A stretch of 64,000 nt of DNA from Sinohyriopsis cumingii (lineage: Eukaryota > Mollusca > Bivalvia > Unionida > Unionidae): positions 32,910,644 through 32,974,643 of the forward strand of contig CM068831.1 of NCBI GenBank assembly GCA_028554795.2. Direction: 5' to 3'. Positions 20,011 to 54,666 of the stretch are shown here, one piece after another. Position numbers and translations under genes: made by a program. Each line of letters starts with the position of its first letter. Position 1 is the first letter of the stretch. The notes beneath the pieces were generated by a model that saw only the letters and a program-made list of their open reading frames with translations, did no database searches and was not told where the DNA came from.

Positions 20011-20033
20011 CCACAATCTTCAGTTTCAATTTA

Positions 20034-22375: not shown

Positions 22376-22455
22376 ATACATACAAATGTCTTAGCTGCAA
22401 GGCAAGTGCTAGACCACGCGATTGTGAATTTGTCCAGGAATGTGGTCCGCATGAG
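22376..22455 (+). CDS. Ly6-like module 1, exon a
   Basis: Acceptor TGAATTTTAG and donor GTATGT bound an 80 nt exon that enters in phase 1 and leaves in phase 0. It encodes the first four cysteines of module 1, starting TYKCLSCKASARP, with spacing C-x2-C-x8-C-x5-C. The same spacing occurs in module 2 (40223-40317), as do the intron phases. In the Ly6/uPAR family this segment forms the first finger. The exon ends exactly four codons after the fourth cysteine, as in module 2. Confidence 0.85.
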
Positions 22456-22971
22456 GTATGTAATTCGATCTTACTATTACGTGTACATGTCTCCAAAATA
22501 TATCTTTGCTATATTCTTCAACTTCAAACATGACATCCCTGCGTTTTAGAAAGTGCTGAAAACTTAAAATTAACAGAATAGACACTAACAATTGTCAAAG
22601 GAAACAAATATTATGGAAATGTGGACTTAAATCTATATTGATTGTATTTCAATAAAATATAATGTTGGAAATTTTCTGTTTCGATTTTTATACCGGCAGA
22701 TGCTGTGACTGTTATCATACACAATTTGGTTCAAAACAGTAGTTTCAGTTACAATCTTATGCTGGCAGAAAAGTACACGTAAATTTCCTAACGTGATGAA
22801 CTTCCTCTTAGTCAACTATTTTAATCTCTCTATCCTTTATATAGTACAATATTTATTTCACTGTACTACCAATTTAAATGTAGTACTACTCATAATGAAA
22901 ACTAAAATATATGCGCCAATTGGATTTCATTCTGTAACTAGTGCAGACCCTCTGTTATATTTACTCTTCAG

Positions 22972-23043
22972 AAATGCTCCATTGAATCATATCTTACGAC
23001 AACGGGCTACATCAGATACGATCTCGGTTGTATGGACATCCAC
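22972..23043 (+). CDS. Ly6-like module 1, exon b
   Basis: A 72 nt phase 0-0 exon between TTTACTCTTCAG and GTAAGT. It encodes KCSIESYLTTTGYIRYDLGC plus four residues, supplying cysteines 5 and 6. The layout (one residue, Cys, 16-17 residues, Cys, four residues) is the same as module 2 exon b at 41173-41241. The longer frame covering this stretch is in another register and is not coding. Confidence 0.85.
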
Positions 23044-25129
23044 GTAAGTATCATGTTTTAAATTTTTGGAAATAGTAATCATTAGTTGGTGTTATTATTG
23101 AGTGCAGCAATACTCATTAGAATGAACAGCACGGTCGATGAATTCTTTGCTTCGTGGAAATCAAAACTCATTAACGGGAAGTGATAACACCAGTTAGAAT
23201 CAATGTCTCCTTATTAAAGATGCAAACATTTTTGTTAACATGCATGAAATTAAATGTTTGCATTGAATGCTTATTCAACTTATCATTATGGTATCAGTTA
23301 CTGTATGGCTTCCAAACTCTCGATTGCTTTATACTTATGAAATAGGGCATCGCTCGAACATTTTTGACTCACCGTTTCATCTGATACCTTGAAATGAGAA
23401 ACTTTCAAATAGAGAACAGTACATCATAACCATATTTTATTTGTGGATAAGAATGGTTAATATGGGTCATGCAATGGCTCATTTGAATGTGTATTTCTAA
23501 TTGTGTCTGCTCGGAGTGAACATTGGAAAATTGTCAGTGTTGAAAATGCTCAAAAATGGCTCATGTTCATCAGTTTCGTACACATTACTTCTAGACAACA
23601 TAAAAACTCTTTCCTGTGCCTATAACACTAATGCATAATAATATATTGAATAACTTGTAATTAGAAAACACACAAAATCAACACGGTTCAGAGACAATGA
23701 TGCCATAAATAACGAAGTATCGTTTTATTTGTTCTCTCTCCAGAGCGAATCTATTTTCATAGCAGGCGTTCTCCTTCATCTATTTTTCACTGACAGGCTA
23801 AATTACAAAACCAAGATGTATTTAACACTATTATGAGATGGTGTAATAAAACAATATATTTCAGTACCAGTAAATATGTAAGAACCATAGTAAATTACAA
23901 AAGTGAAAAACTGTATTAAATTGCAGGCCTATATTACAACAACAGACTATATTACAATACTATAGTACATTACCGTAAAAGGTAAAACAAAATTCAGGCT
24001 ATATTAACATGCCTGGCTAGATCACCATATCAGGTTATATAAGTAATACTACAATGGTAGGATGTACTACAACATCATGATATTGTGCAGTAAATGTCTA
24101 TAAAATGCAGGGCTTCTTTACAGTAACAGAAAATATCTCAATTCCAAAATATCTTGTTTGTCCGTGTTGCACTTCAAACGTCAAAGATGACCATAGCATT
24201 AATAACTGATTTTGGCATATGCGAGTAGGGTGGTTGTTTCAGACTGATTTGCGCTGTAAACAATCTGTGCCACACAAAACAAGTAGGTGTGTCTTGTTGA
24301 TGCTTCTTAAGTAAAGGAATTTCTTCATTTCCAATATTTACGCTGCTCGCTCATATGCACTGCCTCTGCAATTTCCTTATCTCAATATATGTATATCTTC
24401 ACTCAGTATTGAAATATTTTACTGATATTTTTAGTGTGTACTTGAATAGATCTATCTTTCCTCCCTGAAATCGGTTTTGTCCTTCAGCTCGCCATTGAAA
24501 ACCATCTTTGATTGACACTCATCTCACATCCTGATGTTATAGTATGCCTATAACATCTGAACATTTCATTAATAAGTAGAAGCTTCGAATGCCTGCTTTT
24601 GCAAGAACATCTGATTATGTCACCTTTTCTGGTATTTTATCCGAATCAGTTTATTCAGACATCATGTGTGAAAATGGGTCATCTTCCTGGCATGGCGTAT
24701 ATACACACCATCCCGGTTTTGTTTTTATATAGCAGGGTCGGCAGCAAATAACTTTGCAGACCTTCAGGATTGTTTCCAAAAACGTTTCTGCACTCCCACA
24801 CATTCGCCAGAGGTCGACCAATGGTTACATGTGTTTCAACAAATCGGTAATATGTACGCGTGTTTCAACCGAGGGTCTTCGTGTAAATGAGTAAGCAGAA
24901 CCTCGGTTTGCCCAATTGTTCTTGACGTTCTTAGAGGTCACATTATTTTGTTCAAGCTGGCTGCACAGTTTAATGACAAATGTAAGTTTTAGAAGCTCCT
25001 TTCTCAATTTGAAAACGTTGAGCAATTCGTATCTAGGCTGTATCCGGATGTCGAACTTAGAGACTATGAGCCAGCGGTTAGTCTAGCATTATGCACTTCT
25101 CATGGTATTCCTAACTCATACTTCCTGTC
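23044..25129. other. Intron with degenerate repeats and a possible gag relic
   Basis: At 23920-24120 a motif resembling CAGGCTATATTACAAC recurs in degenerate form. Between 24735 and 25105 fragmentary frames read NNFADLQDCFQKRF and later FENVEQFVSRLYPDVELRDY, reminiscent of an LTR-retroelement gag. This is weak and is reported as a finding. The rest shows nothing. Confidence 0.35.
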
Positions 25130-28100
25130 AGTATCTCCCCCTGCGGGTCGGGGTTGAAGAATTGGCCCCACGTGCCTCACTACATGTCGTAAGAGGCGGC
25201 TAAGTACACTAATTTGGCCTCTGCTTCTTCTAGATTGGTCGGGATGGCCCCGGTCTCAACAAATTGGCTGGTCACGCCGAGCCCTAGGAAGTCTTTATTT
25301 ACTCGCTTACCTTTATCTTTCTTCTGGTACCTCCCTTGATACCACCGTTGCACCTACAGTCTATTCCTTTATCTTTCCCTTTCCAAAGTCTTCTAAGACT
25401 TCCTAGAAGGCGTGGCTTCACGGGTCAAACTTAGGTAATTTTATCAACTGAGTATATCATTTGCGTATCCCTGGTACTTGAAAAGTGTCCCTTTGTTGGG
25501 CTCTATGGTGGGCGGGAAGTACGAGTGATGAATTTTAAACAAGCCAACATGGAAATTTTAAAAACAATTCAACATAAACGAACCAAAACTTGATCTGAGT
25601 CAGATGACGAACAATGTAGTGTGGAGTCATTTACACGCTTCATGGTTATACAGTCTAAAGATGCCACAAAACCGCTTGCTGCACTATCTACGTTTGTCAT
25701 CGAGAAAACAATCACCAAATCAATTGGCGCACGTAAAAGTGTTTTAAAAGGTTGAAACCGTGTTGCCTTCTTGTTGAGTGTGAGCGACGAGGTCAAACAG
25801 AAAATATCAAGAAAATTAAAATCTCTTCGACATTCCAGTGACCTGATTAATGCTCATACTATTTTATGGGGATCAAATCAAATAAACGACCGAGGACAAA
25901 AAGTGTAAGCGTTCATTTCTAGAAACGATTTGTGTCTATATAACACGAAATCACCGACATATGTACACCTAGGAACGGGTACATACAATGTTTTCCCTCT
26001 CGCTGATTTTGGACTATGAATGGAAGGTCGCTGATGACCTTCATAGCAGTGATCACTTTCTAATCTCTCTTAAGAACACCGACATTGCAACTGACGAAGC
26101 AATTCCACAACGGAATTTAAAGAACGCCGACTGGGCCAAATTTGAAACACTTTTCACAGCTAGGCTTAACAGGGATATCATTTTAAAAGAATTTTTTTTA
26201 AATTATATTTTACCTCTGTTTTAAACGACATTGCAGAAGAATTCATTCCCAAGTTCTCACCAAACTGTAAAAGAACACAAAAATTGTGATTCACAACAAA
26301 ATGTAAAGATCCCATTAGACAAAGCCGAAAAGTAGTGAAAAAATTAATAATCGTCATACGCTCGAAAATGTAACTAAGAATCGTATCACGATTAAAACAA
26401 ATAAAAGAGCATCATGGAAAAGATATGTTTTAACTTTAAATTCTCGTTCCTCTATAAAGAAAGTTTGGGACACGATACGCAAAATAAATGGAAGGGGAAA
26501 ACACAATTCCTTTCGACATCTCAAACTAAACTAAAAGAATTTAATCCCAAACTTGACGTAGTTAATATAAAGTTGCTGATAGTTTCTCTAAAAGTCCTCA
26601 TCGGTTAATTATTAAGAAGATTAAAAACTCAAAAGGAAAAGATTCGGTTGAAATTCACATCGAATGGCTCAGAAAGTTGTAATCAACCGTTTACACTGTT
26701 TGAGCTGATGGACTCCCTGAATAAGGCCCTGGATACATCCACTGGGACTGAATAAATACATTACCAGTTTTTTAAACACCTTCCAGAACCATCATTAACA
26801 GTTCTTCTGGAAATCTTCAATAATATATGAATTACTGTTAATGTTCCAAACATTTGGAAAAATCAACAGTAATACCAGTTCCCAGACCAGGTAAAGATAG
26901 CGCAGACCCTAACATCTATCGACATATTGCTCTCACAAGCTGTGTATGCAAAACAGTGGAACGAATGATCAATTCTCGGCCTCTTTGGTACCTGGAAACT
27001 AACCATTTAGTATCTCCTTTCCAAAGTGGCTTTCGATATAGCCGGAACACCAATGATAATCTGGTTAGACTGGAAACATTTGTTTGCGATGCATTTGTCA
27101 AGAAGGACATTTAGTAGCGGTTTTCTTTGATTTAGAAAAGGCCCTTAACACAACATGGAAATACGGGATACTAAATGACATGCATGATCTAGGTCTAAAA
27201 GGCTTTCTGCCTTCTTTGGTATCAAATTTTCTCTTAGACAGGGAATTCAAAGTACGAGTGGGCTTTACCCTCTCATATCTGCACGAGCAAGAGATGGGTG
27301 TGCCTCAGGGCAGTATTTTATCTGTGACGCATTTCAACATCAAATTTAATAGCATCACCAAGTTGTTGGCTCCTGGTGTGGATTGCTCGATATAAATTGG
27401 TGATCTTTTCGATCAAAGTACATGCGTACAATCGAAAGACAAGTACAGCAAAAGATAAACAATATCAAAAATCGGTCCAGTACTAACGGTTTCAAATTCT
27501 CGAAATCAAAAACGGTATGTATTTCTGTCCTTTACGGAGACATCACGATGAACCTAAACTCAAGCTACACGAAACACCTATTCCAGTTGTTGAGGAAAAA
27601 AAGTGTTTAGGTGCTATCTTCAACAGAAAACTGACTTTTATTCCACACCTAAAGAACTTGAAAACTAAAAGCTTAAAATCTCTAGATCTACTTAAAGTAG
27701 TAGCGCACACTGACTGGGGTGCTGAAAGAAAAGTTATCCTCAATTTATATAGAACGTTTATTTGCTCCAAACTGGACCATGGTTGCGTTGTTTATGGTTC
27801 AGCCAGAATGTCATATCTGAGAATGCTTAATCCAAGACATCATCAAGGTATAAGACTCGCTCTGGGAGTGTTTAAGACATCCCCGAGTGAAAGCCTTCTA
27901 GCTGAAGCGAATGAGTCATCTTTATCACATCGTAGAGAAATGCTTTCCGTACAGTATGCTTCCACAATTCTTATCATGAACTCCTCAACAAATTTAAATG
28001 CTACACCATACTTTATACTGACGGATCAAATGATGAGGAAATACTGCTGAAGTCATCGTTAGTGGAAATCACACAACAGAAGTTCGCTTAAAAAATGTCA

Positions 28101-28762
28101 CATCAATTTTTTCAGCCGAAATCAGAGAAATAGACCTTGCTCTGCATTAAAAAATGGGACAGACCTATTTTAAATAGCATCATCTTCTCAGACTCCCTAT
28201 CAGTACTTCAGTCACTACACAATAGAAAACTGGAGATTCCATTGTTGACCAATGTTCTCGTCAAAAATACTAAGCTGAGTACCTCCCACAATATCGTATA
28301 CTGCTGTTTACCTCGCCATGATGGTATTTCAGGTTATGAAAAAGCAGATCGCGTTACTAAAATGGTCCTATCTCAAGAGCCAACTGATTTTAAAGTACCG
28401 TATACTGATTTTAAACCTAGTATTAAAGAGACTTTACTTGAGAAGTGGCAGGTATCTTGCAATGATGCAGTGAATAATGAACTTCACGAAATCAAGCCAA
28501 CCCTAGGAGAATAGGCTCCTTCCTACAGAACCATGGGTAGGGAGGAGGTAGTCGTTGCAAGAATTCGAATTGGTCATCCTTATATAACCCACTCGCACAT
28601 ACTAAAAGGCGAAGACACTCCCGAGTGCATTTCTTGCAATGAACCAGTCACTGTTAAGCACGTTATATTTCGACTACAACCTACGCGCGATCAGTATTAC
28701 AATGTACATGACTTGATTCGACTTTTTGACACAATAAATATCGCTTGTACAATCAATCAATC
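25130..28762 (+). mobile_element. I/Nimb-like LINE relic, copy 2 (internally deleted)
   Basis: It starts with the family 5' sequence (CCCTGCGGGTCGGGG, CATGTCGTAAGAGGCGGC) and ends at a CAATCAATCAATCA tail. Most of ORF1 and the endonuclease N-terminus are missing: the sequence passes from the ORF1 start directly into the endonuclease segment near 25853. The 3' UTR is almost wholly deleted just before the tail. RT and RNase H regions survive in fragments. Same orientation as the host gene. Confidence 0.85.
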
Positions 28763-28790
28763 AAGCAACCTCTCTGTATTTTGTCTTGAC
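25853..28790 (+). pseudogene. LINE ORF2 (endonuclease C-part, RT, RNase H), broken
   Basis: Endonuclease remains include LDYEWKVADDLHSSDHF (25988-26224). RT remains: VPRPGKDSADPNIYRHIALT (26854 on), motif A region VFFDLEKALNTTW and GVPQGSIL (27084-27395). The YxDD box is lost. Downstream are RT thumb-like sequence (27517-28050), an RNase H start LYTDGSNDEE in another frame near 28010, FSDSLSVLQSL (28137-28514) and a terminal Cys/His segment CISCNEPVTVKH (28533-28793). Several frameshifts and stops are present. Confidence 0.85.
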
Positions 28791-29210
28791 TAAGATTAAC
28801 CATCGTGGGTAGTGCGGATGCATACAAAACGTCTTGTCTGCCTTCGGTGCCACTGCTATTAGTGACTCACGGGCTTCATAAAATGTGGCCTTGATCTCAT
28901 GTGGGTTAGTCATATTGAGAGAATCTGCCCTAAAGATAGCTGCTCTCTCATTTGCATTAATCTGTCATTCTTGTACTTTGTACAATCTGTGAGTTTGCTG
29001 AGCAGCAGTAATTTGATGGCAAAGTGTAGGTGACTGATAAACCTCCAAAATATAATTTTCCGTCAAGACATGTTTTAATCAGAGCTGCTATCTAGATCTT
29101 AAAGATGGCAAGTTCCTTTCTTCCCAACGTGATTTGGTTGTCGTCTGGTCTATCTGTTGATGCAGTGACTTTTACAATACACACATTTCAAGCACCAACG
29201 TTTGGCAGGG
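28790..29210 (-). pseudogene. RTE-like LINE endonuclease fragment
   Basis: On the minus strand, fragmentary frames follow the order of an RTE-type AP endonuclease. A degraded start lies near 29200. Next come FAIKLLLLSKLTD (about 29000), DRLMQM, and then TNPHEIKATFYEARESLIAV with PKADK near 28830-28915. In the family FYE..L..AVPKADK precedes LGDFNAR, which is destroyed here. Frames shift repeatedly, so this is a dead fragment. It abuts the 3' end of LINE copy 2 but runs the other way. Confidence 0.5.
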
Positions 29211-31140
29211 TATTTTAAGAGCGCCTTTTGTAGCACCTCGCTTGTCTTACGGATGTCATTATCTGTGATTCTAAATCAGACTGCTCAGTCAACTGACGGA
29301 AGTAAAATTTTAGTGCTGCTTCCTTCCAGCGAAAAGCGATCCTGTATCTAGATCCTCGTGAGTAACGCTCTACAGATGCAGCTTACAGTGTATGCACACA
29401 TGCTACTTATTCGCTCGCCCATCGCCACAGAACGGGAAGCCCAGGACTTGTAAGCACTTAAATATCTTTGTCAAATAAATAAATGGCTAATAAAGAGCAG
29501 ATCACACTGACTGGGTTTGATATTTTTCCAAAGAGATTTTGGAATTATTGCATCAAGTAGTAATATACTTAAAACGTCCTACTTGGTAACAGGACAGAAC
29601 TTGCTGACATGCCGAAACATTAACAGTGCTGTGTTCATTTTCATTTGAGTCAAAACCAAATGTTCAGCGTTCACGACGATAAACACAATATATTTCGGTG
29701 CAACTGGCACTCGTTCGGAATATTAGAATCAAGATACAGTATCATTAATAACTACACAGGATTCACTGATCCACATTCAGTGGCCTTAAGGTACAACATA
29801 GTATAAATGAACATATTTTGCAGTAACATCTAGGACCTTGAAGAACAATAATGTATGCCAGTGTATCAAAGTATGAAACAAACGTTTCCATAAAGCATTC
29901 CTTTGAAAAATCTGTTATGAAGTAAGTTTGGAATGATTAAGCGATCATCAGTGAAAACCGCCATATGAAAGGCTCTATTTATAAAGAAATGTACATACTT
30001 ATCATTTTTGTACACATGTAGTTCATTATCCATCGAAATTACTCTTCCTTCCGTTAATAGTTCTTTTAATATGCTAATGTTTAGAGATAAACAACAACAA
30101 TGTATTTTTTTACCGATGCATTTACTCATGTCTTGATTTTTTCTGAGTGAGTTTGAAGAACCAGCAAGCTAGAAATTTCATAATCTGCAACAATCGGGAC
30201 GAAAGTGTGCATAATATTGAATGAGATCTAAACATGAAAATTTACTTTACAAGAATTTAATTAACAGTTGGCCGATACTTCCTTAAAAACACCTAAATGA
30301 TATGTAGTTTCTATCTTGTTTTCGATTTCAGACTTCAATAAAATTCTTAAGCAGTTCCTTTAAATTCATATATATGCCTTGTATTATAATTCAGCATAGG
30401 ATTATAGGTTTTTGGGGACTATTGTTTTTTGTGCCTGAACCCTTATGTTTATACAGGCAGACTGCTCCTCCTGAACTTGACTTAAAGCAGCTAAATGCAC
30501 CATTCAAATGTATTACTAATGTATGTCTGTTGCTGATTGTTATTGAACCAAGCGTCCCAATACAATAAACTACGATTCTAAAAGAACAACAAGAAACAAA
30601 AAACAATTGAATTGAATAACTTTGTAAAGAACACGCTCTCTATTTTCTCGCAAAGTGCAAACATTGCATTATAAGAAATATGGTTGGATACAATACAATA
30701 TATAAGAGATGAATGAATGAAGTGGTATTTATCTTCATTCGGCTTGTATGTTTGCACTCAATATCATACCTTTATCGCACTAGACAGCAACTCGAGTAAT
30801 GGCACTGTAAAACATTCTGACATAGTTATATGTACATTTGGTAGAATTTTTATATACTGTACCTTTTGTATGTAATTGTTCATGCACAAAACTGTACTCA
30901 AATACACCCTCAACTTATCTATTTCGTACTCGCAGAGACAGCGAACTTAAAGCTGCAGTTCTAAAGAATTATTCTATAGGTATCCGTTCATCACAAGGGA
31001 TTAGAACTCTATATGCTATTCTGATTTTGTTTTGCAAAACTAAGCATACAAAACCTCATGAAGAAAAGTTTCACAATTGTTGTCTATGAAATCACCAATA
31101 AACAGGACAGGAAATAGAATAATCAAGCGTGATAGATTTG
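29211..31140. other. Intronic sequence, nothing firm
   Basis: Short frames on both strands (29866-30129 minus, 30374-30568 plus, 30838-31089 plus) show no domain motifs and no module-type splice signals. Confidence 0.35.
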
Positions 31141-31213
31141 AATATATATATATATACATATATATACAGATATATATACATATATATATACATATATATA
31201 CATATATATATAC

Positions 31214-31281
<68 letters not shown>
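31141..31281. repeat. (TA)n/(TACA)n microsatellite
   Basis: About 140 bp of TA with periodic C substitutions in the first half and pure TA in the second. It lies 180 bp before an exon. Confidence 0.95.
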
Positions 31282-31286
<5 letters not shown>

Positions 31287-31460
31287 TCTCTCACGGGTTT
31301 CAGACCATTTTGCATTCAGTCTCTTGCAAAGAAATTTGCTGCAGCAACAATTGAAACCTGATATGTATCAATGACACGCTTTAAGACGCTTTCGTTATTT
31401 CAAGTAACCATAGCTGTCAACGATTCAATGTTCACGTGTAAGCTTCGATCATATTTCCAG

Positions 31461-31644
31461 AAATGTGCAGCTTTTGGATCAAAAAGAGCTCTACTGAACG
31501 GCAGTGTTATTGAGGAGATTAAACAGAAGGATAATTTTGCCGTAGTTCCTGACGAGCAATGGGATGATTATAACAAAGACTCGTTACTGTGTGCTGAATG
31601 TTGCACTAATGATTTATGTAATGCTCAAGGATGTGGTGAAGCAG
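31461..31644 (+). CDS. Ly6-like module 1, exon c
   Basis: Acceptor CATATTTCCAG and donor GTAAGG bound 184 nt entering in phase 0 and leaving in phase 1. It supplies cysteines 7-12, with the family-defining end LLCAECCTNDLCNAQGC (C-x2-C-C-x4-C-x4-C); the CC-x4-CN part is the hallmark of the Ly6/uPAR fold. Between Cys7 and Cys8 is a 41-residue loop, 13 longer than in module 2, holding a possible N-glycosylation site (NGS). The upstream part of this open frame (31371-31460) is intron. Reading through the donor would end at a stop 26 nt later. Confidence 0.88.
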
Positions 31645-31867
31645 GTAAGGACCATTTTGTGCAATCATGATAAAATAAGTTTAGTGGAAGTGTCAAGTCC
31701 TGAACATCGTTAGTTAATTGGATGATTGTATTATCTAAGAAGTACTCAAGACCTACAACGTAATATTGGCGGTACGGTAAAATAGGTCTAACAATAAAAC
31801 TAACGATATACTGACGATTCATAGTTTTGAATATGCTTTCTTATATTCTGATATTTGAGATACAAAT

Positions 31868-32005
31868 GACGGATATCACTTTCCGCTTTGTATGATGTGT
31901 ATTAGTAACTTCTATATTGATCTCTATATATCTCGATCTCTTTCAGAAGAATTTAAATGACCCCGTATGAGACGAAAGTTAATTATTTGGTCGTCCTTGT
32001 ATCTG
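31868..32005 (+). repeat. Dispersed repeat related to the 50.5-51.2 kb cluster
   Basis: GGATATCACTTTCCG and the pattern GATCTCTTTCAGAAGAAT...AATTATTTGGTCGTC match, with divergence, sequence at 50867-50900 and 51075-51150. Family not recognised. Confidence 0.4.
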
Positions 32006-32642: not shown

Positions 32643-34180
32643 TTGATGAATATAGAACACGACGTAATGGAAAACAAAAGCAAAAATCAACTGAAACGTT
32701 CTAAATCCTTAACGGACTCAGATGAAGTACCGTGTAGCTTGGAATCATTCCCACGCTTCATGGTTGTTCATTCAAAAGATCCTACAAAATCAAAATCTGC
32801 GCTATCACCATTTATATTCGAAAAGACTATACTTGTCCTAGTTGGCACTCGTAAAAGCGTAAAAACTCAAATCGGGTAGCTTGCTCGTTGTATGTGAGCG
32901 CAAGGTGCAGACCGAGAACATCAGGAAAATTCAGACTTTGTATGAAGTTCCGGTTACTACTTTCGCTCATTCGACTCTCAACTCTTCCATATGCGTTATT
33001 CGCTACCGAGACCTTGCAACGGACAGCGACACTGACATCATCGAGAGAGTGAGGAATCAAGGTGTTACTGCAATTTGCAGAATTCGTATCAAACGGGGCA
33101 CATAATTGCAGGACACAAACACCATCATACTTACCTTTAACACACCAACACTACCTAACGTAGGAAAATTCAGCTTTTTCAGGTTAAAGTTTAAGTGTAT
33201 ATTCCAAATCCTCTACTTTGTTTCAAGTGTCAGTAGTAGGGTCACCACGATGAGTGATGCTCCAGAAGACTTGTGTGCGGCCAAAGCTGAGAAAACAGAC
33301 ATCGAGAAGGAGACTGCGTCGCAAACCACCAATGTGCAAATTGTGGCAAAGGTCATCATGCCAGTTCAAACGACTGCTAGACCTGGAAATTAGAGAAGGA
33401 GATCCAGAGGGTAAAATATACGTTACACAATCCCTTTCCAGAGGCCAAAAAGATGCTCGAATCTAAAACCCAACTACATGGCCAAAAATTCTCAAATGTT
33501 GTAAAAACCAGTCCAAATACAACCAAGGATGGACAAACTCAAACTGATCTACCAGATTCAACAGCAGCTATTAGCATTCCACACTCCAAGCCACAACAAA
33601 TCACAAACGTTCCTTGGATGCGGGAGGTCGTGGGTTCGATCCCCTGTCGAGTCATACCAAAGACCAACAAAAATGGAACTAATAGCTGCCTTGCATGGAG
33701 CTCAGCATTAAGAGGTTAAGTGTTATGATGGGTCGACCTGGTGGCATGATAATGTGACTGGGTCGGACATCATGATACATGTCTTCAGCATCAATCCCCA
33801 GTGCTAGACATCACTATAACTGTCACACTGCAGACATCGTAGCGATATGACTGAAAAATCGTTAAAGCTACGTAAAAAATCCAAATCACGCACACACTCA
33901 CAATCTCCACACATACAAATTTCAACAACCCCCCCATATCTAAGTCTCCATACAAACAAAAACAACAACAAAACAGGCAGAGAAAGGGGTCTGACGACCC
34001 CATTAAGCTACACAATAGGTTTGGCGACTTTGGGGACATGGATGCTGAAGAAACTGCTCCATGTTCGCAGGGCAGCTCAAGACGTGCAAACAAAACATTT
34101 AACTGGATACTTCCTCCAGAAAAATAACCACATTCAGTGCCACCGCGAAAGGATTAACTTAGCTACCTTATCTCTACTTT
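32643..34180 (+). pseudogene. LINE ORF1, broken and split by a SINE
   Basis: ORF1 begins near 32643 with DSDEVPCSLESFPRFMVVHS (32643-32879), aligning with copy 1. It continues in other frames with VPVTTFAHSTLNSSICVIRY (32881-33105). The zinc-knuckle part is mostly degraded. A SINE interrupts it at 33614-33900, after which SDDPIKL.NRFGD.GDMDAEE is recognisable, matching copy 1. Confidence 0.8.
33614..33900 (+). mobile_element. tRNA-derived SINE nested in LINE copy 3
   Basis: It starts within the tRNA-like part (GTCGTGGGTTCGATCCC, a B box). It then shares CGAGTCATACCAAAGACC, TAGCTGCCTTG, AATGTGACTGGGT and GACTGAAAAATCGTTAAAGC with the copies at 44150 and 58380. The end is AC-rich. It lacks the A box, so it was 5' truncated. 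It must be younger than the LINE it interrupts. Confidence 0.8.
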
Positions 34181-34189
34181 AAACTTATA

Positions 34190-37140
34190 ATGAAGAACAA
34201 GATCATAGAATGGACCTGTGGAGAACTTAAATCCAATTACAATGATATTCTTCCGCTCCTTAATGAACATCATCCTGCAGTACTATGCCTGCAGGAAACT
34301 TTCTTGAAAGATACGGAGAACATAACACTTAAAATCTACTCTGTTTTTAATAACTACTTTAAAAATGGTGACATATCCTCTGGAGGAGTTACTGTATGTT
34401 TGAACAATAGTGCTCCTCACAATGTCATCCCTTTAAAAACAAATGTACAAGCTATTGCTGTAAATGTCACTCTACACAGAGTGATTACGTTTGGTCCTAT
34501 TTACATACCACTAAACACCAACCTAGTACCAAATGAATTAGACAGTCTTGTTCAACAACTTTCCGTGCCCTTTGTGTTACTCGGAGATATTAATGCCCAT
34601 ACCATTTTATGGGGATTAAATCACGTCAGTGACAGGGGACACAAAGTAGAACACTTCAGCTCTAGACACAATTTGTGTCTATTTAACACCAAATCACCGA
34701 TTTATTTACACCCAGGAACGGCTATCGATCTGACAAGTTGTTATCCGTCGTTGCTTTTGGATTATGAATGAAAGGTCGCTGATGACCTTCATATCAGTGA
34801 TCACTTTCCAATCTACCTTGAAAATATCAACTCTACTATTGGTGACTCAAATCCACAATGGAATGTGAAGAAGCCCGACTGGGCTAAGTTTGAACCATTC
34901 TGTAAAGCTAGGCTGAATGTGGATACAGTCTTCAACATTTGTTACCTATTCAGCATTTTAGTTCAGTTTGAATAGAGATTGTAGAAGCATTCATTCCGAA
35001 ATCCTCACCGAACTGTAAAAGAACCCCAAAACCTTACTCACTAAGGAATATAAGGAAGCCATTAGACAACGCCGAGAAGCATTGAACAAAATGTAACACT
35101 CATCCGAACCCAGAATATTTAAGTAAATACCGTATTCTCCGGGCCAAATCTCGCCGCACAATCAACGAATGTAAACCAGCATCATGGAAGAAATATGTTT
35201 CTTCTTTAAACTCCTGTTCCTCTATTAAGAAAGTTTGGGACATTATCCGCAAAATAAACGGAAAGTCAAAACTCAATTCTCTCCGACATCTGAAGATAAA
35301 TAATAACACTTTTAGTTCAAAACGTGACGGAGCAAATATTCCTGCCGACAGTTTCTCTAAACATTCCTCATCATCTAATTATTCAGCAGCCTTCCAAAGA
35401 TTTTTTTTTAAAAAACGTCACGTTTAAAATTCATGTACAACACCTCGGATTTGCACGAGGAAGAGATAGGTGTGCCCCAGGGCAGTATCCTATCTGTGAC
35501 GCTTTTCAACATCAAAATCAATAGCAGCACCAAGTGTTTGGCTTCAGGTGCGGATTGCTCGTTATACGTTGATGATTTTCTTATACGATATCGACAAAGC
35601 ACATGCATTCAATTGAAAGACAACTGCATGACAATATTTTAAGATTAACAATTGAGTTTCGAATTAGCGGAGTAAAAACCGAATGTATGCATTTTTGTAA
35701 GTTACAAAGACATCATGATGAACCTAAACGCACGCTGGACGGAATACATATTCCAGTTGTTGAGGTATTATCTTCAACGGAAAACTGACTTTTATTCCAC
35801 ACATAAAGAAATTGACAGCTAAATGCTTGAAATCTCTAGATCGATTCAACGTAGTAGCGCACACTGACCGGGGGGGGGGGGGGGGGGGCTGATGATCTTC
35901 AATTTATAAAGAACGTTTGTTCGCTTCAAACTGGACCAGGGTTGCATTGTTTATGGTTCAGTTAGGAAGCCATATTTGAAGATGCTTGATCCAATTCATC
36001 ATCAAGAAATATGACTCGCTCTGGGAGCATTTAAGACATCCTCGTGTGAAAGTCTCCTTGCTGAAGCGAAAGCACCACCTTTATCACATCGTTGAGAAAT
36101 GCATTCCGCACAGTATTTTCTCAAGGTAAGATCAAAACATCTGAACTCTGCTGTTTCAGCTGTGTTTCAACCAAAATACAAAATCTTGTATGAAAATAAA
36201 CCACACGCAATACCTTCCTTTGGAATTAGAATAGCATCCAGCCTTGACAGTACAAAAATTGATCTTTCTAAAATTCAGAAATCGTCCGTTCCCGACACAC
36301 CGCCCTGACTATTTAAACAACCAAAAGTAATTTTTTCGCTACACGATGAAAAAAAAATCCGAGACAAACCCTTCCATCTTCTACAACTCTCATCATGAAG
36401 TCCTCGCCGAATCTAAAAACTACACCAGAATTTATACTGATGGATCAAAAGACTTGGAAAAGGCTGCCGAGACTTTCGTTAGTGGAAATCGCACGACACG
36501 TGTTCGCTTACCAAATGGCACATCAATATTGTTCGGCCTTAATCAGAGCAATAGATCTTTCTCTGCAATATATCGAAGACAAACCTTTTTTAAACTACAT
36601 CCTCTTTTCTGACTCCCTATCTGTACTTCAGCCATTACACAATATAAAATTGGAGAACCCTTTGTTGACCAATGTTCTCGTCAAAAATACTAAGCTGAAT
36701 ATCTCCCACAATATTGTATACTGTTGGTTACCTAGCCATGTTGGTACTAAAGGTAATAAAAAAGCAGATCTCGCTGCTGCAGATCTCGCTGCTAAAATGG
36801 CCCTTACTCAAGAACCGTCTGATTTTAAAATACCGTATGCTGATTGTAAACCTAGCATCAAAGAGAATGAAGCAGTGAATAATAAACTTCACGCCATCAA
36901 GACAACTCTAGGAGAATGGACTCCTTCCTAGAGAACCATGCGTAGGGAGGAGGTAGTCATTGCAAGGATTCGAACTGGTCATACATATATAACCCACTCC
37001 CACATACTAAAAGGTAAACACCCACCAGAGTTCGTTTCTTGCAATGAACCATTCACTGTTAAGCACTTTTTGATGGAGTGCAACCTACTAAAATGTTCAT
37101 TACATGAAGGAACTGTTTGATACAAAAAACATCACTTGTA
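34190..37140 (+). pseudogene. LINE ORF2 (endonuclease, RT with YVDD, RNase H), broken
   Basis: The start at 34190 opens a 193-codon endonuclease frame with LCLQETFLKD and VLLGDINAHTILWG, stopping at 34769. RT is partly deleted near 35400. What remains includes GVPQGSIL and LYVDDFLIRYR (35433-35642), so the catalytic YxDD survives in an otherwise broken frame. RNase H is recognisable as RIYTDGSKDLEKA (36346 on), LFSDSLSVLQPL and WLPSHVGTKGNKKADLAA (36395-36931), followed by the terminal FVSCNEPFTVKH segment. A G19 run at 35870 disrupts the thumb region. Confidence 0.88.
35870..35888 (+). repeat. Poly-G tract (G19)
   Basis: A run of 19 G in the LINE RT thumb region. At the same place copy 2 has only GGGG (ACTGACTGGGGTGCTGA), so the run is an expansion of a G4 or an assembly artefact. 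Confidence 0.95.
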
Positions 37141-40222: not shown

Positions 40223-40317
40223 GATATCCATCAGATATCGGTCCCATCTGTTACAACTGTGCTCAGGGGCAGCGTCCCGACGAGTGTAATCAAATTAAAG
40301 CGTGCGGCATAGATCAA
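40223..40317 (+). CDS. Ly6-like module 2, exon a
   Basis: Acceptor ATATTCGTAG and donor GTAAGC bound 95 nt entering in phase 1 and leaving in phase 0. It encodes YPSDIGPICYNCAQGQRPDE and then C-x5-C plus four residues. The four cysteines have the same spacing as module 1 exon a (C-x2-C-x8-C-x5-C) and the intron falls at the same place. This is strong internal evidence that both are real and arose by module duplication. The glycine at the junction is completed by the last base of 31461-31644. Confidence 0.87.
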
Positions 40318-40722: not shown

Positions 40723-40724
<2 letters not shown>

Positions 40725-41172: not shown

Positions 41173-41241
41173 GTATGCCATTTGTCATTCAATGCGGTAG
41201 GATCTGATTTAGTTTTCACGAGCGAATGTACAGCCAGACAG
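41173..41241 (+). CDS. Ly6-like module 2, exon b
   Basis: A 69 nt phase 0-0 exon between CTTTTTGTCCAG and GTATCT. It encodes VCHLSFNAVGSDLVFTSEC plus four residues: cysteines 5 and 6 separated by 16 residues (17 in module 1). Entry, exit and cysteine placement mirror 22972-23043. Confidence 0.86.
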
Positions 41242-41606: not shown

Positions 41607-41614
41607 GACTACTC

Positions 41615-45406: not shown

Positions 45407-45626
45407 GCGTGTCATGGAACCTTAGACATAGGACCCATTTTTGGTCGACGACGAAAAAGCATCGAGATGATAAGCAGACGCAAGAGGGCGCCACGATGTC
45501 ATAAATGCTGTTCTAATAACCTTTGCAACTTAGACAACTGTACTTCACTGACCCACATAAATGCAGTTTCGAATCCGCCTATGACAACCGATTCAGTAAC
45601 AATTGCACCGGTAGTTTCGCATTCAG
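45407..45626 (+). CDS. Ly6-like module 2, exon c plus Ser/Thr linker
   Basis: Acceptor TTTTACTGCTGTAG and donor GTACTT bound 220 nt entering in phase 0 and leaving in phase 1. It begins ACHGTLDIGP (Cys7), has a strongly basic loop with GRRRKS and SRRKRA, then the closing signature CHKCCSNNLCNLDNC, with spacing identical to module 1. After the last cysteine comes a Ser/Thr/Pro-rich linker (NPPMTTDSVTIAP) typical of an extended spacer. The RRKR at 45476-45487 fits a furin-type cleavage site. Confidence 0.88.
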
Positions 45627-48280
45627 GTACTTTCATGTCATCTCTTTCTCTGAACATTCAAACTGCTTACTTATCCAAACGATGATTTTTGTCGTAACAT
45701 CGGATCCTGATGTAGTTTCAATCTAATATAACACTGTTAATTCCTTTCATCATTTTTATTACGATCAACGTGGGTATTGCGCTGATTTCCATTATTCTTC
45801 TTCTTGAGAGGTTGTTTGCTAAATGACACATTACTTGAAGTACTTAGATACATATTCTCTTCTTAACGTACGCGTGCTTGTTTGTAATAATCATATAGTT
45901 TGTAGTAGATGCCACACATATCTTTAACTGCTACAGACATGCTAGCTGAAAACCGTATTTACTTGCTTGCTTTCTCCACTAGGCTGGAATACTTGGCTCC
46001 ATTGCAGTATAAGTGTTGGTGTATGCACACGTTGCACAATGCGTGTCAATAACATGTATCTTAAGGCAAATGGCTGACCTACGTACAGTGTTACAAAACT
46101 CATAGTTTTTCAACGACAAACCATACACAGATAAAGCACTCTCTCTGGATCACTATGTTACATATTGTTATGTTTTTTCCTCATAAATTGCATTATTTAA
46201 TTCTTTTTTTAAATATATTTTCCTTTCAATGAAGCATCTGGATTGCATGTGGGTCTGAGAGTGTGTTTATTTGTGTATGTGTATTGGGGTAGGGTTGGGG
46301 GGCATTTAGTATTGCCTTGGTTGTTTTGGACGAGTAGCTTGGTCATGTGGAAACGTTGACAAACCGTTTTGTACCTGAAAAAATCTTCTAGGTCACTTGT
46401 ATTTTCCCCACTGTGTCAAGTATTCACAAAATTGGCTGTGAGCGCTAGGACAATCGAGTTTAAGACAATACAATGTAAAAACAGTCAATAGTTTTTGTCG
46501 ATTAGTATAAGGATACTACACGTATTTACTAGGTACAATCGTTGGCTACAGAACGTAAACTTTTAGCCCCTAGGCAAAGCATGTCCAGTCCAAAGTCCTA
46601 CCTTGAGTCTAGAATGCTCTGGTAAATTTTGACACACAGCAGACTATGCTTACATGTTTAGTTAAGATATATAACGGTGTTAGTACAATTTATGGACAGC
46701 GCACTTCACGATGTCACGGTATTGACGTAAGATACATACTCTTTTTAACACAGATGACAGAACTAATCTCATGCACCAAATTTAACAATCATAAGTACGC
46801 TTCATGTCGACGTTGTGTGTTGTTTAATTATGTACAAACATATTCGGAGTAGGACTCATTGAAAGCAAGTTCAAAAACATGTCGGCATAATTTATTAAAG
46901 AAAAGTCGACCCATATGCACAATTTAAGTCTTTGTATTTATTTTTACCTGCGTTCTGTGTGCTTTCTGTATAACTCCTCGAAGATCTTTAGAAGCTGAGT
47001 ATGTTTAGGCTAACATGCTTAAGGTCCAACATATTAAGGAAAGCAGCAGTGGCAGGCACCTTTGTAATTCCGAATCCTTGTAACATTTAAATGGAATATT
47101 CGTAAGGTCAGGTCCACTCAAAAAATAGGTATAGCAGGGCATGCATATCGCCTGTGCAGTTTGAAGGAATTGTCTCTTGCACATCCGACATGCACATAGT
47201 CATACCAATTGCACAAGTAGACTAGGTATTCAACTGATTCTAATTAAAGGTTAAAAGGAAATGTCCATCTTGTCGTCCTAATGATACAAATTTAGTTTAC
47301 TAAGAGGGTGATAAACTAAGATATTCCTACGCTGTATAATTATGTCCGCTGTAAATTGCATTATTCAAGATCTCCGTCTGAAAACAATCGTTTGCAAATT
47401 GCGCTCAACAATTTCCCCCTTTATTTTACAACACTCAGAATTAATGTCAGTAAAATTTCTTGGCCGAAATGTTCAATAAATATTATTGACGAATGCATCT
47501 TTCTTACATACCCCTATTTGCCGTTATTGCTTAAAATTGTGTTTGAATGCATGGGAAAAATCAGAGAATCACTGTACTCGCAAAAAAGATAAAGCTTCAT
47601 CAAATGAGTAGAATATTAAATAACATATTACGAAGGGAAGACGGCCTGATTATCTTGGATTTCAATGTGGGGGAGTGTTTGCTTATCTAATATTGTGTTA
47701 ACCTCTTATAATGTGAAATACTTTAAATTAAAAACTAGCTATCTTGTTGTAGCTGGTATTCACAACTATTCGAGACGGTATAAGAATCTTAATATATATA
47801 TCTCCTTTTAGCGGGATGGATGCTGTTAACTAATAATGACGTGATAAAAGACTTCAAGTCCTCATATTTGATGGTTAAATTTGATAACTCTTCAAGCTGG
47901 TAATACAGACCTTCCAACACATAACTTAACTTATATCAATCAACCCACAAGTATTTTCCTACCGTAAACAGAGCTTAAGAAATTTCAGGTTAGTTCCAAT
48001 TTTGTATCATACCTCTGGTTGGCGACAAATATGAGTTTCAAATGTATCAACACAAAACTTCAAATTACCCTCGCTTTTTGTGAAATGTGCCCAACAAAGC
48101 AACCTCCTTTGCATCTGGATGTTAGTCGACGTTCTCTTGTGGATGAAGTATCGTATTTGTTTTATGAATAGCTGTAGTCGCATAAATTAGATTTACTAAA
48201 CAAATATCATCTTAATTAGTATTTCAACGTCTTATATCAATGCAAATTTCAAGACTGATCCAGTAATCTCTTCCTTTCAG
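45627..48280. other. Intron with two possible decayed module exons
   Basis: Between module 2 and the TSP1 exon, segments at 45983-46074 (TSP1-like, ends in a stop) and 46643-46726 (Ly6 exon b-like) have module-type splice sites. Both are reported as findings. Neither can be joined into a complete module, and the remaining sequence shows nothing recognisable. Confidence 0.35.
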
Positions 48281-48448
48281 TTGATGGCCAGTGGTCAGCA
48301 TGGACGGCTTGGGGTATTTGCAGTCAAACGTGCGGAACCAGTGGAATAACTGCCAGGCAACGTACTTGTAATAATCCCGCACCTTCTGCTGGAGGAAAGG
48401 GCTGTGTTGGCGGACATGTTGAAACGCAGCCCTGTTCGGGATCCAAAG
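48281..48448 (+). CDS. Thrombospondin type 1 repeat exon
   Basis: Acceptor TCTTCCTTTCAG and donor GTAGGA bound a 168 nt phase 1-1 exon encoding exactly one TSP1 domain. Signature features are WSAWTAWGICSQTCG, the arginine strand ARQRTCNNPAPSAGGKGC, and ETQPC near the end. WxxW motifs are sites for C-mannosylation and CSQTCG for O-fucosylation in this family. Such repeats bind glycosaminoglycans and matrix or receptor proteins. Only five of the usual six cysteines are present; the last is missing at the exon end. Confidence 0.93.
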
Positions 48449-48589
48449 GTAGGAAGACTATGAAAAGTACTCTCAGAACCTGGATAATGTTTCATGTCAT
48501 CAAATAAATCTAATGATGTGTACCAATATTGCTAAGTATTAGAGTCACAATGTCTCGGATTTTGTTTTTTTTAATAATTTTTTTTACCA

Positions 48590-48715
48590 TTATTCCAATC
48601 TAACCTAAGCTTGGAAAGAAGTAAATTATTTATTTTTAAAAGAAATTGTCACAAACCTTTACCTTTATTCCAATCTAACTAACGCTTGGATAGAAATAAA
48701 TTATTTATTTTTAAT
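48590..48715 (+). repeat. Two-copy tandem repeat, period 75 bp
   Basis: TTATTCCAATCTAAC...GCTTGGA...TAAATTATTTATTTTTAA occurs at 48590 and again at 48665 with a few changes. Confidence 0.85.
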
Positions 48716-50490
<1,775 letters not shown>

Positions 50491-50514
50491 GCTATCACAC
50501 AGGTTAGATAATTT

Positions 50515-51200
50515 TTTAATTCGTAAACTAAGGAAATTCGAACCCAGATCCGCTGGTAAACGGCACCCATAGTCTTGGCTGCACACACAACCCCATATTC
50601 CTTCACCACTAAGCACACATCACCAAAAAATTATGTTAGTCAGTCTGTGTTATATGCGCTCGTGTGTAGCAGACACACTTGCATGAAGACCTAGTAATTA
50701 ATTCTCGTGTATTTACACAATCGTTCCTGATTCCTATGAAAGAAATCGGTGTATATAGAATTAATTATAGAGACTTATAAATAAATATACACCAAGCAGA
50801 AGTAATATTATTTGTATTAAAATATTAATTCTGCCCACTATTATGAAGCATTCTTCTATAGGAATCCAAGGATATCACTTTCCGTTCTGTCTTGTGTATA
50901 TCTTAAAAATTCGAACCCAGGTCCCCTGGTAAGCGGCACTCATCGCCTTGCCTGCACATACCAGCCTATATTTCATCACGACTAAGAACATTTCACCAAA
51001 AAATGATGCTACTTAATCGGTGTTATATCCACTTGTGTGTATATTCATTATCATCTATATTTAATCATATATACCTTGATTTCTTTCAGAGGAATCCGGA
51101 ATTGTTGTGTAGATAGATGAGTATTAATTACTAGGTCGTCATGCGAGTGTGTAATCAACACACCAATGCATATAACACCGATTAAGTAGCATCATTTTTT
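50515..51200. repeat. Cluster of copies of a dispersed repeat in both orientations
   Basis: A minus-oriented copy at 50519-50760 and a partial one at 50920-51055 share TTCGAACCCAG, CCTGGTAAGCGGCAC-like and CACCAAAAAAT blocks. A plus-oriented part at 51070-51200 matches the reverse complement of 50640-50750 (GATTTCTTTCA, AATTAATTACTAGGTC). Arms 50998-51028 and 51170-51200 are perfectly complementary over 31 bp. The TTCGAACCC block on the minus strand resembles a B box, so a tRNA-related SINE is possible. Confidence 0.6.
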
Positions 51201-51938
51201 ATATTGACCGTTATAACACGTATTACAAAACGAACGATTATGAATTTTAAACTCATGCCATATCAACATCATAAGTTGAGATGAATTCAGTTGAAATCAT
51301 TCAAAGTTTATCCGGTCGGCTACGTAACCATCTTTGGTTTTTGTGTCTAAGATTTGTTATTACAAATTCTTGATCAATTCTGAGTGCGGTGATGATGGTG
51401 TGGACATTAACGACCCATTTTTGATCATATTTCAGTCGACGCTAAGATTGATAACAAAATTGTCGTTCAACCTCTTGAGGAATATCGGTTTCAAAGTGGT
51501 GTTACTAAACATTCGTGCGATAAGGTATATAAGTGTGTTAGTGGTCAAATAGAAATGTGGCATTAGAAGAACCCTGATGTGAAATATCAACCCGAGGCCA
51601 ACATAGAACCTTAGCGGAGGCAAGCACCCAAAGTTGACTGAACCAACGGCAAAGTAGCATTACCAGCTGTATCCACCCCGGTACCTTTCCCAAGTATAAA
51701 TTTACACCAACATTGTCTTGAGTGAGATAAACATATCTCGACTTTTCTTCAACAAGGATCTACTTGTTTGTGTAACAGTTACTGAGCGAAGACGATCGTA
51801 AGAAGCAAATGGAAGATGCGTAATAATTGTGTTTTAAAAGAAGAGGGTGCTAGACTCCACGAAGCACAGTCTCCGGAAATTGAAATAGTGACATAACCGA
51901 TATGACGATTCCTCTAAATACATCTTAGTTCATCATGC

Positions 51939-51941
<3 letters not shown>
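51201..51941. other. Intronic sequence, nothing recognised
   Basis: Short frames only. No module-type exon. Confidence 0.45.

Positions 51942-51986
<45 letters not shown>
51942..51986. repeat. (TC)n microsatellite
   Basis: About 45 bp of TC units. Confidence 0.97.
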
Positions 51987-51990
<4 letters not shown>

Positions 51991-53364
51991 GTTGATTCCT
52001 TCCTATTTTACAGGAGATCCGCATGCTTTTATGAAATGCCAGTTGATCCCGATAATCTCGTTCGATCTATTAACTAACCAGCAGTTAATGCATAACAAAT
52101 GAATCAACATTCAAGTCACTACGATATTTCTTGCTCATTTTTAAGAATTTTCTTTCACATTTTTGGGAATTATTCTTTTCGGAGTGGGAAATAATGTGTG
52201 ATTTCACAAATTCTACTTGATACGGTTAAAACACATTTAGCAATCATACTGATATTAATGGATACATGACCTATTTATGTTTACAAATCCTTTACTCCCT
52301 TTTCCAATATTTGGAGAAGAGACATTTTCACTCAGGTCAGAATCTTTTTTCTTACAAACACGCACGCACACACACACACACACACAGTCATTTAATAACT
52401 TGAATACTGGTGATTAGACAACGCAATACACTTTGACTCACATGAAAATATATTTTAGCCACTCTCATACATAAAACACCACAGTTTATCTACTGAACTC
52501 GTGTACTGAAAGCAGTACCTTTTATATGGAAATGTATATCCTTACAAACAGTCTCCTGCTCTCCGTACATATATAAACATTAATCGTTCTTTAATTTTGA
52601 ATTGTATTGCACGTAAAATTGACATATCAATGCATAAAAATATAGTCATAAGAACATTATTTGATATATATTCTTCAGGTTCAAGTCTGCAAATACAAAT
52701 TATAGAATATTCGAAGAAAAGGATAAATAATGTAAAAATTATTGATTTTTTTCTCACCTAACTATCGATACAAGATTCTGTACACTTTAATTATTTGATA
52801 CTCTACATATCGGAAAATGTTAACAAGAAAGATTTAAACTAATGACAATAAAAGCATAGTATTAATACAGTTTAGTTGAAAGTGAAATTCAAAAAGAATC
52901 TGATAATCTTAAAGTAAAAAAGCGTAATAGAAATTACATAAATGTGAAAAGTTTTAGAGGTGATGGTGTGGGGCTAGAATTTTGTATTAATTCAAGATAT
53001 TTGTTTCCTTTCACCTCATGTTATCTTATTTCATCAGCAATTATGATTTATAAATATAGCACCGTTTCTACATATCAGAGCAACAATTTTGTTTCAATAC
53101 ATTTAGGGGCATATAAAGAAGAGTAACTGCCAAATCCTTGGCCCTACTAAGAAAAAACTATATGGTCAGTCCCTACAGTAAATGGGACCATGCATGCTTG
53201 CAATGTAACTAATGTAAACTAGTATATAACCAACACATGCTACGTGTAGTTTTAGATTCATTTCTGTTCACAGTAGCAAGCAAATATGAAATATCAAGAG
53301 TTTGAAATGTGGGAGATTGACACATGTTGCAGTTCCGATTATTTTGTACAATTTCTACTTCCAG
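51987..53364. other. Intronic sequence with a short (CA)n run
   Basis: A CA run at 52355-52386. Otherwise AT-rich with short frames and no domain motif. Confidence 0.45.
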
Positions 53365-53492
53365 ATCCGCAGGTTATTCAGAGTGCACAGAACTTTACAA
53401 AACCAACTGGTTCACAGATTGTGATACACTGTCTTGTGTCAGGTGGTGCTTCCCCAGCACAGGCTCCCAATATCACATGGATTGCTCCTCAG
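53365..53492 (+). CDS. Immunoglobulin domain, first half
   Basis: Acceptor TTTCTACTTCCAG and donor GTAGGT bound 128 nt entering in phase 1 and leaving in phase 0. It encodes PQVIQSAQNFTKPTGSQIVI followed by HCLVSGG and PNITWIAPQ, that is the B-strand cysteine and the C-strand tryptophan of an Ig fold. Two N-glycosylation sites are visible (NFT, NIT). Splitting an Ig domain by a phase 0 intron between the C strand and later strands is common. The frame extending from 53286 is intronic upstream of the acceptor. Confidence 0.88.
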
Positions 53493-54507
53493 GTAGGTCT
53501 TGCTTTGTGTTTATCTTATAGACTCGGTGGTAGAGGGGCACTACCAAAATCCCACGCGTATGTAGCTCAGTGATATGTAGGACCAACACACTAATCAAAC
53601 CTAACGGTTCGTATCGTGATACATATTCCATAAGCGATACAAGGCCAATAACAATGGATGCAAATATAGATTTCCATATAAATGGTATGGGTGAATGAGA
53701 CAGTAAATACCAATGGATGCCCATTAAGAATGTGAGTTGCGCATTCTTTTGTCTTTAATAATCTTCTACATTAATTTAAGTTTAACCTTCAAAAAGTCAC
53801 TCATTATTATTTACTTGCATCAGTCACACTCGCTTATTATTCCAAATGTTCCATTCCACGGCATTTCCATTGATCAATATGAAACATTCACTGTCCTCTT
53901 CTTCTACTTCTCCTGGGCCACTGTAAAATGGATATGTTGAAATGTCGCCGTCACTCCATTTCCATTTGATCAATCACGTCAACGTTTTGAACACGTTTGT
54001 CTTCTCCTGTCTAATCTACTCAATTAATCGCGTCACGTCCTATGTACATTGGTGTTTGCTACAATATTATTAAATTATGAAGGATACATTCAGGAGGGCC
54101 AAAACACAAAATGGTATGATATGATATGAATTATTTTGATACAAGTTGAGAGTTATTATTATTATTCCTTTAGTGCCATTTGACGAATTAGTTTTGAGCA
54201 TGTTGTAATGGAAATTAACAAATATCTTAATAACTTTATTTCACAAAATATTCTAATAAAAATTCTCTTTTGATCCTGATAATGTTATCCCGCTGATAAT
54301 TCATCTACTCTTTATAATTATGTCTGCCTGTATTAGTTTAGATGTTTGTGCTTTTTCGTTTCACACCCTACATAACTATCTCTGTGCTGGTCCAACTAAC
54401 TCTACTGCTAGAGATGTGCCATGCGTTTAAAACAACTGTGGAAACAACCGCTATCACCACAAACGGCCTCTACTACCTTAGGTGATAACCGCCATTATCT
54501 TTTGCAG
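53493..54507. other. Last intron, nothing recognised
   Basis: AT-rich with no repeat element identified. Confidence 0.5.
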
Positions 54508-54666
54508 ATAGTTGGTCATCCCATACCAACAAATGTGGCACAATTACCAGACGGATCCCTCAGTATTGACAGGTTGACGTTGGAAAATGTCGGACCGTAC
54601 TCTTGTACATTAACTACTAATTGTGGCACGTATGACTCAGCCAAATTCTGGGTCAGTATACAGTAG
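54508..54666 (+). CDS. Immunoglobulin domain, second half, and stop
   Basis: Acceptor TTATCTTTTGCAG starts a phase 0 terminal exon. It encodes GSLSIDRLTLENVGPYSC, the classic L-x-L-x-N-V-G-x-Y-x-C end of an Ig domain, then a final strand ending KFWVSIQ and TAG. With the previous exon it completes a roughly 90-residue Ig domain. An extra cysteine (TTNCGTY) follows the F strand. Nothing follows the G strand: no transmembrane segment or GPI signal, so the protein is probably secreted. The frame upstream of 54508 belongs to intron. Confidence 0.9.
   Translation: MVGHPIPTNVAQLPDGSLSIDRLTLENVGPYSCTLTTNCGTYDSAKFWVSIQ

Follow-up and report, generated by a model that had tools for sequence, protein, structure and literature searches.

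A tandem gene family joining LU, TSP1 and Ig domains in Sinohyriopsis cumingii

The DNA analysed here, referred to as the window, is a stretch of 64,000 nucleotides from Sinohyriopsis cumingii (contig CM068831.1; C8:32910644-32974643), and it contains one member, named g3, of a tandem array of related genes. The nine exons of g3 lie on the + strand between positions 22376 and 54666, counted from the first letter of the window, and chain in phase into two LU (Ly6-like, three-finger) domains, one TSP1 repeat, one Ig domain and a stop. The phases run 1-0-0-1 in LU1, 1-0-0-1 in LU2, 1-1 in TSP1 and 1-0-stop in Ig, and the chain, read from its phase-1 start, gives 390 residues and then TAG without an internal stop. 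A preliminary description of this DNA had proposed nine exons joined by phase to a stop and a polyadenylation signal, and this proposal holds in detail: the start at 22376 and the end at 54666 are exact, all internal exon boundaries are AG/GT, and TAG and AATAAA close the chain. The features of g3 are the following; g5 and g6 are other array members, and the block copy is a second copy of the array region, all described below.

22376..22455, + strand: exon A, first finger of LU1 with Cys 1-4; enters in phase 1, leaves in phase 0; unchanged in the block copy; homologue in g6, 83% over 24 residues
22972..23043, + strand: exon B, second finger of LU1 with Cys 5-6; phase 0-0; homologues in g5 and g6
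31461..31644, + strand: exon C, third finger of LU1 with the C-terminal CxxCC...LCNxxxC; enters in phase 0, leaves in phase 1; contains KR and a sequon for N-glycosylation
40223..40317, + strand: exon D, first finger of LU2; enters in phase 1, leaves in phase 0
41173..41241, + strand: exon E, second finger of LU2; phase 0-0
45407..45626, + strand: exon F, third finger of LU2 with a basic RRKR stretch, the C-terminal CxxCC...LCNxxxC, then linker; enters in phase 0, leaves in phase 1
48281..48448, + strand: exon G, a TSP1 repeat with WxxWxxWxxC and five Cys instead of six; phase 1-1
53365..53492, + strand: exon H, N-terminal half of the Ig domain; enters in phase 1, leaves in phase 0
54508..54666, + strand: exon I, C-terminal half of the Ig domain and the stop TAG (54664-54666)
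54691..54696, + strand: AATAAA, candidate polyadenylation signal, beginning 25 bases after TAG

Two starts are open for exon C, and position 31386 was rejected in favour of 31461 because the latter has the better acceptor (tatttccag), restores a spacing like that of LU2 and agrees with the genes g2, g5 and g6. The count of 12 Cys in LU1 depends on this choice, as the start at 31386 gives 13. Exon patterns, which were composed after the exons had been seen, occur in the region twice for A/D, twice for C/F and once each for TSP1 and Ig, against 0, 0, 0 and 2 in 100 dinucleotide shuffles taken together. Scans of the window for tRNA genes and Rfam families were empty. A search of the genome with a molluscan haemocyanin domain gave 0 matches, as it did in 14 control genomes, and the best match of a reflectin query (E 0.19) was not significant.

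The genome (2.90 Gb) was searched exon by exon with only the best candidates scored, so that the match counts are lower bounds, and about 252 kb of array sequence were read in stretches, beyond which g1, g2 and g4 may have further exons. Exon F has at least 19 genome matches at E<=1, at least 14 of them below 1e-5; C8:32.77-33.08 and C8:31.05-31.36 each hold six of these, C16 has one, and another, with two in-frame TGA, is at C8:21.25. Exon C likewise has at least 19 matches, and the 12 or more below 1e-6 fall five and five into the same two blocks, on C16 and at C8:21.24. At least 22 matches were obtained with the Ig exons, of which 20 are located in the two blocks (four with stops) and 2 elsewhere at E>0.5. 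The array around the window consists of the following genes, with positions in Mb.

g1, C8:32.737-32.780: LU1 exon C, LU2 exon F, three TSP1 (one with a stop), Ig
g2, C8:32.854-32.891: exons C, D, E and F, nine TSP1, Ig
g3, the window gene: exons A to I, one TSP1
g4, C8:32.983, minus strand: only exon F seen, the adjoining sequence beyond F lying outside the stretches read
g5, C8:33.018-33.030: exons A, B, C, D and F, four TSP1 (one with a stop), no Ig found
g6, C8:33.068-33.092: exons A to I, one TSP1 found (33.083 to 33.0863 Mb lie outside the stretches read)
C8:33.098-33.102: gene fragment with stops

All nine exons of g3, with one TSP1, recur in g6, and the number of TSP1 repeats varies among the array genes from one (g3, g6) to nine (g2). 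In the four Ig-bearing genes read (g1, g2, g3 and g6) the splice sites are conserved and TAG stands at the same codon. The earlier proposal that a single gene carries the order LU-LU-TSP1-Ig is thereby backed by the Ig-bearing paralogues g1, g2 and g6 as well as by the near-identical block copy.

The array exons are present twice on C8, at 31.02-31.38 and at 32.74-33.10 Mb, in the same orientation and about 1.72 Mb apart. The aligned pieces of the two copies (73 kb) are 93.8 to 99.3% identical, and the block copy of g3 retains all nine exons and their splice dinucleotides. The second block would be a genuine segmental duplication or else a stretch of about 0.36 Mb from the second haplotype that was misplaced. 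One uniform repeat of 1.7 Mb was rejected, because a 1.5 kb probe at C8:32.0 Mb had, outside its repeat part, no match but itself (43 rows; best 40 of 8441 candidates). A repeat of about 325 bases (L044:441-765) has copies that are 90-93% identical on many contigs, among the best 40 of 8441 candidates, and is an abundant, little-diverged element.

Each LU domain has ten classical Cys and an extra pair, in agreement with the count of 12 Cys in the preliminary description. LU1 and LU2 are related to each other (BLASTP 1e-5). Five rows were aligned, namely LU1 of g3 and of g5 and LU2 of g3, of its block copy and of g2, which represent four distinct domains; the 12 Cys and the Asn after the tenth classical Cys are invariant in all five. 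One Cys of the extra pair is positioned three residues before CC and the other four after the Asn (LCNxxxC), and in the simplest reading they would form a sixth disulfide. When the PDB was searched with the profile of this alignment, all six matches at E<=10 were three-finger proteins (E 0.031 to 7.1): SLURP-1 (0.031), GPIHBP1 twice, PSCA, LYPD1 and TGF-beta receptor type 1, only SLURP-1 being near significance. Among Pfam models, Toxin_TOLIP touches all five copies, always below its cut-off, and UPAR_LY6 touches one of the five at 9.2e-4. Finger 3 of LU1 contains KR in all six copies examined and an N-glycosylation sequon in five, the block copy of g3 being the one that lacks it.

Phase-1 introns flank both LU1 and LU2, and each domain is divided into three exons by two further introns, one immediately ahead of Cys 5 and one separating Cys 6 from Cys 7. 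A 2019 review (PMC6600238) defines the LU domain by ten Cys bonded 1-5, 2-3, 4-6, 7-8 and 9-10 with an Asn after the tenth; according to it the domain is typically, not obligatorily, encoded by two exons, whose boundary falls at the tip of loop 2. Set against that description of bonds and loops, the content of the exons (Cys 1-4 in A, Cys 5-6 in B and the remainder in C) suggests one finger per exon in each LU.

The TSP1 exon matches Pfam TSP_1 at 1.3e-12 (48.1 bits, cut-off 21.6), and its PDB matches are led by thrombospondin-1 (E 1.5e-22) and include UNC5B/5D. The Ig domain, which is interrupted by an intron, has the B- and F-strand Cys and the Trp (IHC...NITW...YSC); searched alone, it reaches 23.7 bits with I-set, equal to the printed cut-off of that model, and 29 bits (1.6e-6) with Ig_3, whose cut-off is 30. 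DCC, MDGA1 and ROBO1 are among its PDB matches. In the 390-residue chain TSP_1 is still over its cut-off and the Ig models are below theirs.

Six Cys are standard for a TSP1 repeat, and this number is found in 13 of the 14 other TSP1 exons read; the exception, in g5, carries a stop. The TSP1 adjoining the Ig, on the other hand, has five in g3, g2 and g6 and four in g1, and the Ig has three in g3, g2 and g6 and four in g1, which brings the sum for both domains to eight in all four Ig-bearing genes (5+3 in three, 4+4 in g1). In each of the four the extra Ig Cys is located six residues past the F-strand Cys and therefore in the FG loop, on the side expected to face the preceding TSP1. Considering that the TSP1 adjoining the Ig lacks one Cys, the Ig has one more and the sum is constant at eight, a disulfide between the last TSP1 and the Ig is predicted. 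The C-mannosylation motif WxxWxxWxxC is present in the TSP1 adjoining the Ig in all four genes, and an O-fucosylation pattern in three of them, g3 being the one without.

The product is probably secreted and soluble, since it consists of extracellular module types only and no transmembrane part or glycosylphosphatidylinositol (GPI) tail can follow the stop. Secretion, as claimed in the preliminary description, is thus likely from the module types, from the Ig being the last element and from the stop shared by four genes, although the signal peptide itself was not found. Several stretches with an ATG, a hydrophobic run and a phase-1 donor are candidate first exons encoding a signal peptide; the strongest, though unproven, is at 7175..7259 on the + strand, and no convincing counterpart of it was seen in the upstream sequence read for g5 and g6. 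The short open reading frame (ORF) 7175-7273 has a long hydrophobic run, and its first 28 residues are identical in the block copy; it is a candidate signal-peptide exon, a candidate membrane micropeptide or a product of chance. When the first 23.1 kb of the window were compared with 7.2 kb around exons A and B of g6 (blastn, E<=0.01), only these two exons were conserved.

Selection was estimated by the Nei-Gojobori method with our own script, as the ratio of non-synonymous to synonymous substitution rates (dN/dS). Between g3 and g6, in which 195 of 337 residues are identical, the ratio is 0.25; it is 0.24 for g3-g1, 0.29 for g3-g2, 0.30 for g2-g6, 0.27 for g5-g6 and 0.38 for g1-g6, and synonymous sites are saturated in the three remaining pairs that involve g5. 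The older genes of the array are under purifying selection. Between g3 and its block copy there are 15 differences in 1175 bases, 8 of them synonymous on 260 sites (Ks 0.031) and 7 non-synonymous on 910 (Ka 0.0077), and over the gene region as aligned, with its exons, the two differ at 403 of 32519 positions (1.2%).

All the modules of this family are known. With the LU superfamily (SLURP-1, GPIHBP1, PSCA and LYPD1, and the multi-LU proteins uPAR and LYPD3) the array proteins share Cys 1-10 and the Asn, the phase-1 flanks, tandem clusters and LU domains in series; they differ in having 12 Cys, three exons per LU instead of two, an attached TSP1 and Ig, and no room for a GPI tail. With TSP1-repeat proteins such as thrombospondin-1, properdin, ADAMTS and UNC5 they share TSP1 with WxxWxxWxxC, and UNC5 likewise joins Ig to TSP1. 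In UNC5, however, the Ig precedes TSP1 and a transmembrane part is present, the array TSP1 adjoining the Ig is one Cys short, and we know of no LU domain in thrombospondin-1, properdin, ADAMTS or UNC5. I-set domains like those of DCC, MDGA1 and ROBO1 resemble the array Ig in the Ig_3/I-set match and in the intron inside the domain, whereas the array Ig is single and C-terminal and has the extra Cys in the FG loop. Among the entries listed by text searches of the open-access literature, read as titles and abstract openings, there was no description of the combination LU, TSP1 and Ig, which the preliminary description had called unusual. We therefore claim the joining of LU to TSP1 and Ig as a new variant, not as one proven absent elsewhere.

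What could such a protein do? We see an even chance that the array encodes a family of extracellular recognition or adhesion proteins of the form LU-LU-TSP1(n)-Ig, acting in humoral recognition or as cell-matrix adaptors. From the N-terminal side, such a protein would begin with two LU and a short linker, continue with one to nine TSP1 and end in a single Ig with nothing beyond it. LU1 and LU2 would form an N-terminal binding head, the TSP1 repeats would serve as a stalk, longer in some genes than in others, and the Ig together with the last TSP1 may constitute a rigid base unit locked by the inter-domain disulfide. The basic stretch in finger 3 of LU2 (RRKR in g3) is a possible proprotein-convertase or heparin-binding site. 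The family would diversify by duplication, loss and changes in TSP1 number; the variable number of TSP1 repeats, the broken members and the duplicated block make it a candidate for a diversified recognition family.

A further step is to regard LU as a true shuffled module in this lineage, with one finger per exon, variable TSP1 stalks and a disulfide-locked TSP1-Ig base, so that a new, expanding class of soluble recognition proteins would have arisen as a birth-and-death array. This is possible, but we hold it only tentatively. The review cited above (PMC6600238) judges it probable that the LU domain is no bona fide mobile module, and an LU-TSP1-Ig family with three-exon LU domains would be a counter-example to that view. 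The array, with a separate exon for each finger, shows how LU could be shuffled and diversified.

Several observations weigh against a recognition family. LU1 alone gave no significant match in the Pfam search, and LU2 alone stays just below the cut-off of Toxin_TOLIP (E 0.0011, 20 bits, cut-off 21.2). RxxR occurs just ahead of CxxCC in finger 3 of LU2 in only four of the seven copies examined. No convincing shared candidate for a signal-peptide exon was identified in the upstream sequence read for g3, g5 and g6, and no Ig was found for g5; therefore the Ig is not universal in the family. The Ka of the block copies (0.77%) is just moderately under the divergence of the gene region (~1.2%), and the changes are few (7 and 8), so that these counts alone show little on selection. 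Finally, g1 and g2, the most recent pair of the array, have a dN/dS of 0.73 against 0.24-0.38 for older pairs, which reflects either relaxed constraint or diversification after duplication.

The main rival is a structural protein of extracellular matrix, mucus, shell or egg case, in which the modules would form a cross-linked scaffold, comparable to spondins and hemicentin-like proteins, and duplication would raise dosage only. TSP1 and Ig are common matrix modules, the older copies are mainly under purifying selection, and the basic stretch of LU2 could bind glycosaminoglycans; yet each chain has only two LU and one Ig, and about 40% of residues differ between copies (g3-g6), which exceeds the expectation for pure dosage. 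We consider this explanation rather unlikely. Improbable, in our view, is a recognition protein of gametes or accessory glands. It would fit a tandem array with decaying members and the fast recent pair g1-g2, and a vertebrate LU cluster includes TEX101, which has a role in sperm. The same cluster includes SPACA4, which is expressed in spermatocytes (PMC6600238). The older pairs, however, are clearly constrained.

Lower still we place a neural modulator, whose LU domains would act on nicotinic receptors like SLURP/Lynx and whose TSP1-Ig part would provide targeting as in UNC5-type guidance proteins. SLURP-1 is indeed the top-scoring solved LU protein, and TSP1 of UNC5B/5D and Ig of DCC appear among the PDB matches, but these similarities are explained by shared module types. 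Hardly credible is the explanation that the exons come from more than one gene and were chained only by an artefact of phase bookkeeping. Although the introns are long (up to 8.6 kb, between C and D) and the first exon is missing, the same exon order is found in g1, g2, g6 and the second block, the chain has no internal stop and ends with a stop and AATAAA after the Ig, and, among the matches listed, no Ig-exon match with E<0.5 lies outside the array and its copy.

Beyond the array, the relative on C16 has exons C and F, and 3.7 kb downstream a phase 1-1 exon with six Cys that is ShK-like by eye (L042:3518-3625, C16:62.9745 Mb) and matches no Pfam family at E<=10; an ShK-like exon after an LU relative hints at a wider shuffling of LU pairs. 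Orphan copies of exon A with acceptor and donor, found without a B or C of their own, lie 23-26 kb before exon A in both blocks. One of them is located at C8:32909708 (L016:4708-4779), 0.9 kb before the window, and another at L020:4177-4248; they could be alternative finger-1 exons or relics. Within the window, a Cys-rich ORF with a splice acceptor (12290-12499) was first read as the last exon of another gene, and this reading was rejected. It has 33 genome matches at E<=1, two of them strong (itself and the block copy) and 31 weak (E 0.003 to 0.9), with stops in 16 of the weak ones, and thus resembles a dispersed repeat. On the + strand, broken frames that by eye look like parts of retrotransposons, with zinc-knuckle and reverse-transcriptase-like stretches, occupy positions ~19250-21600, 25900-28800 and 34100-37100, in or before the introns of g3.

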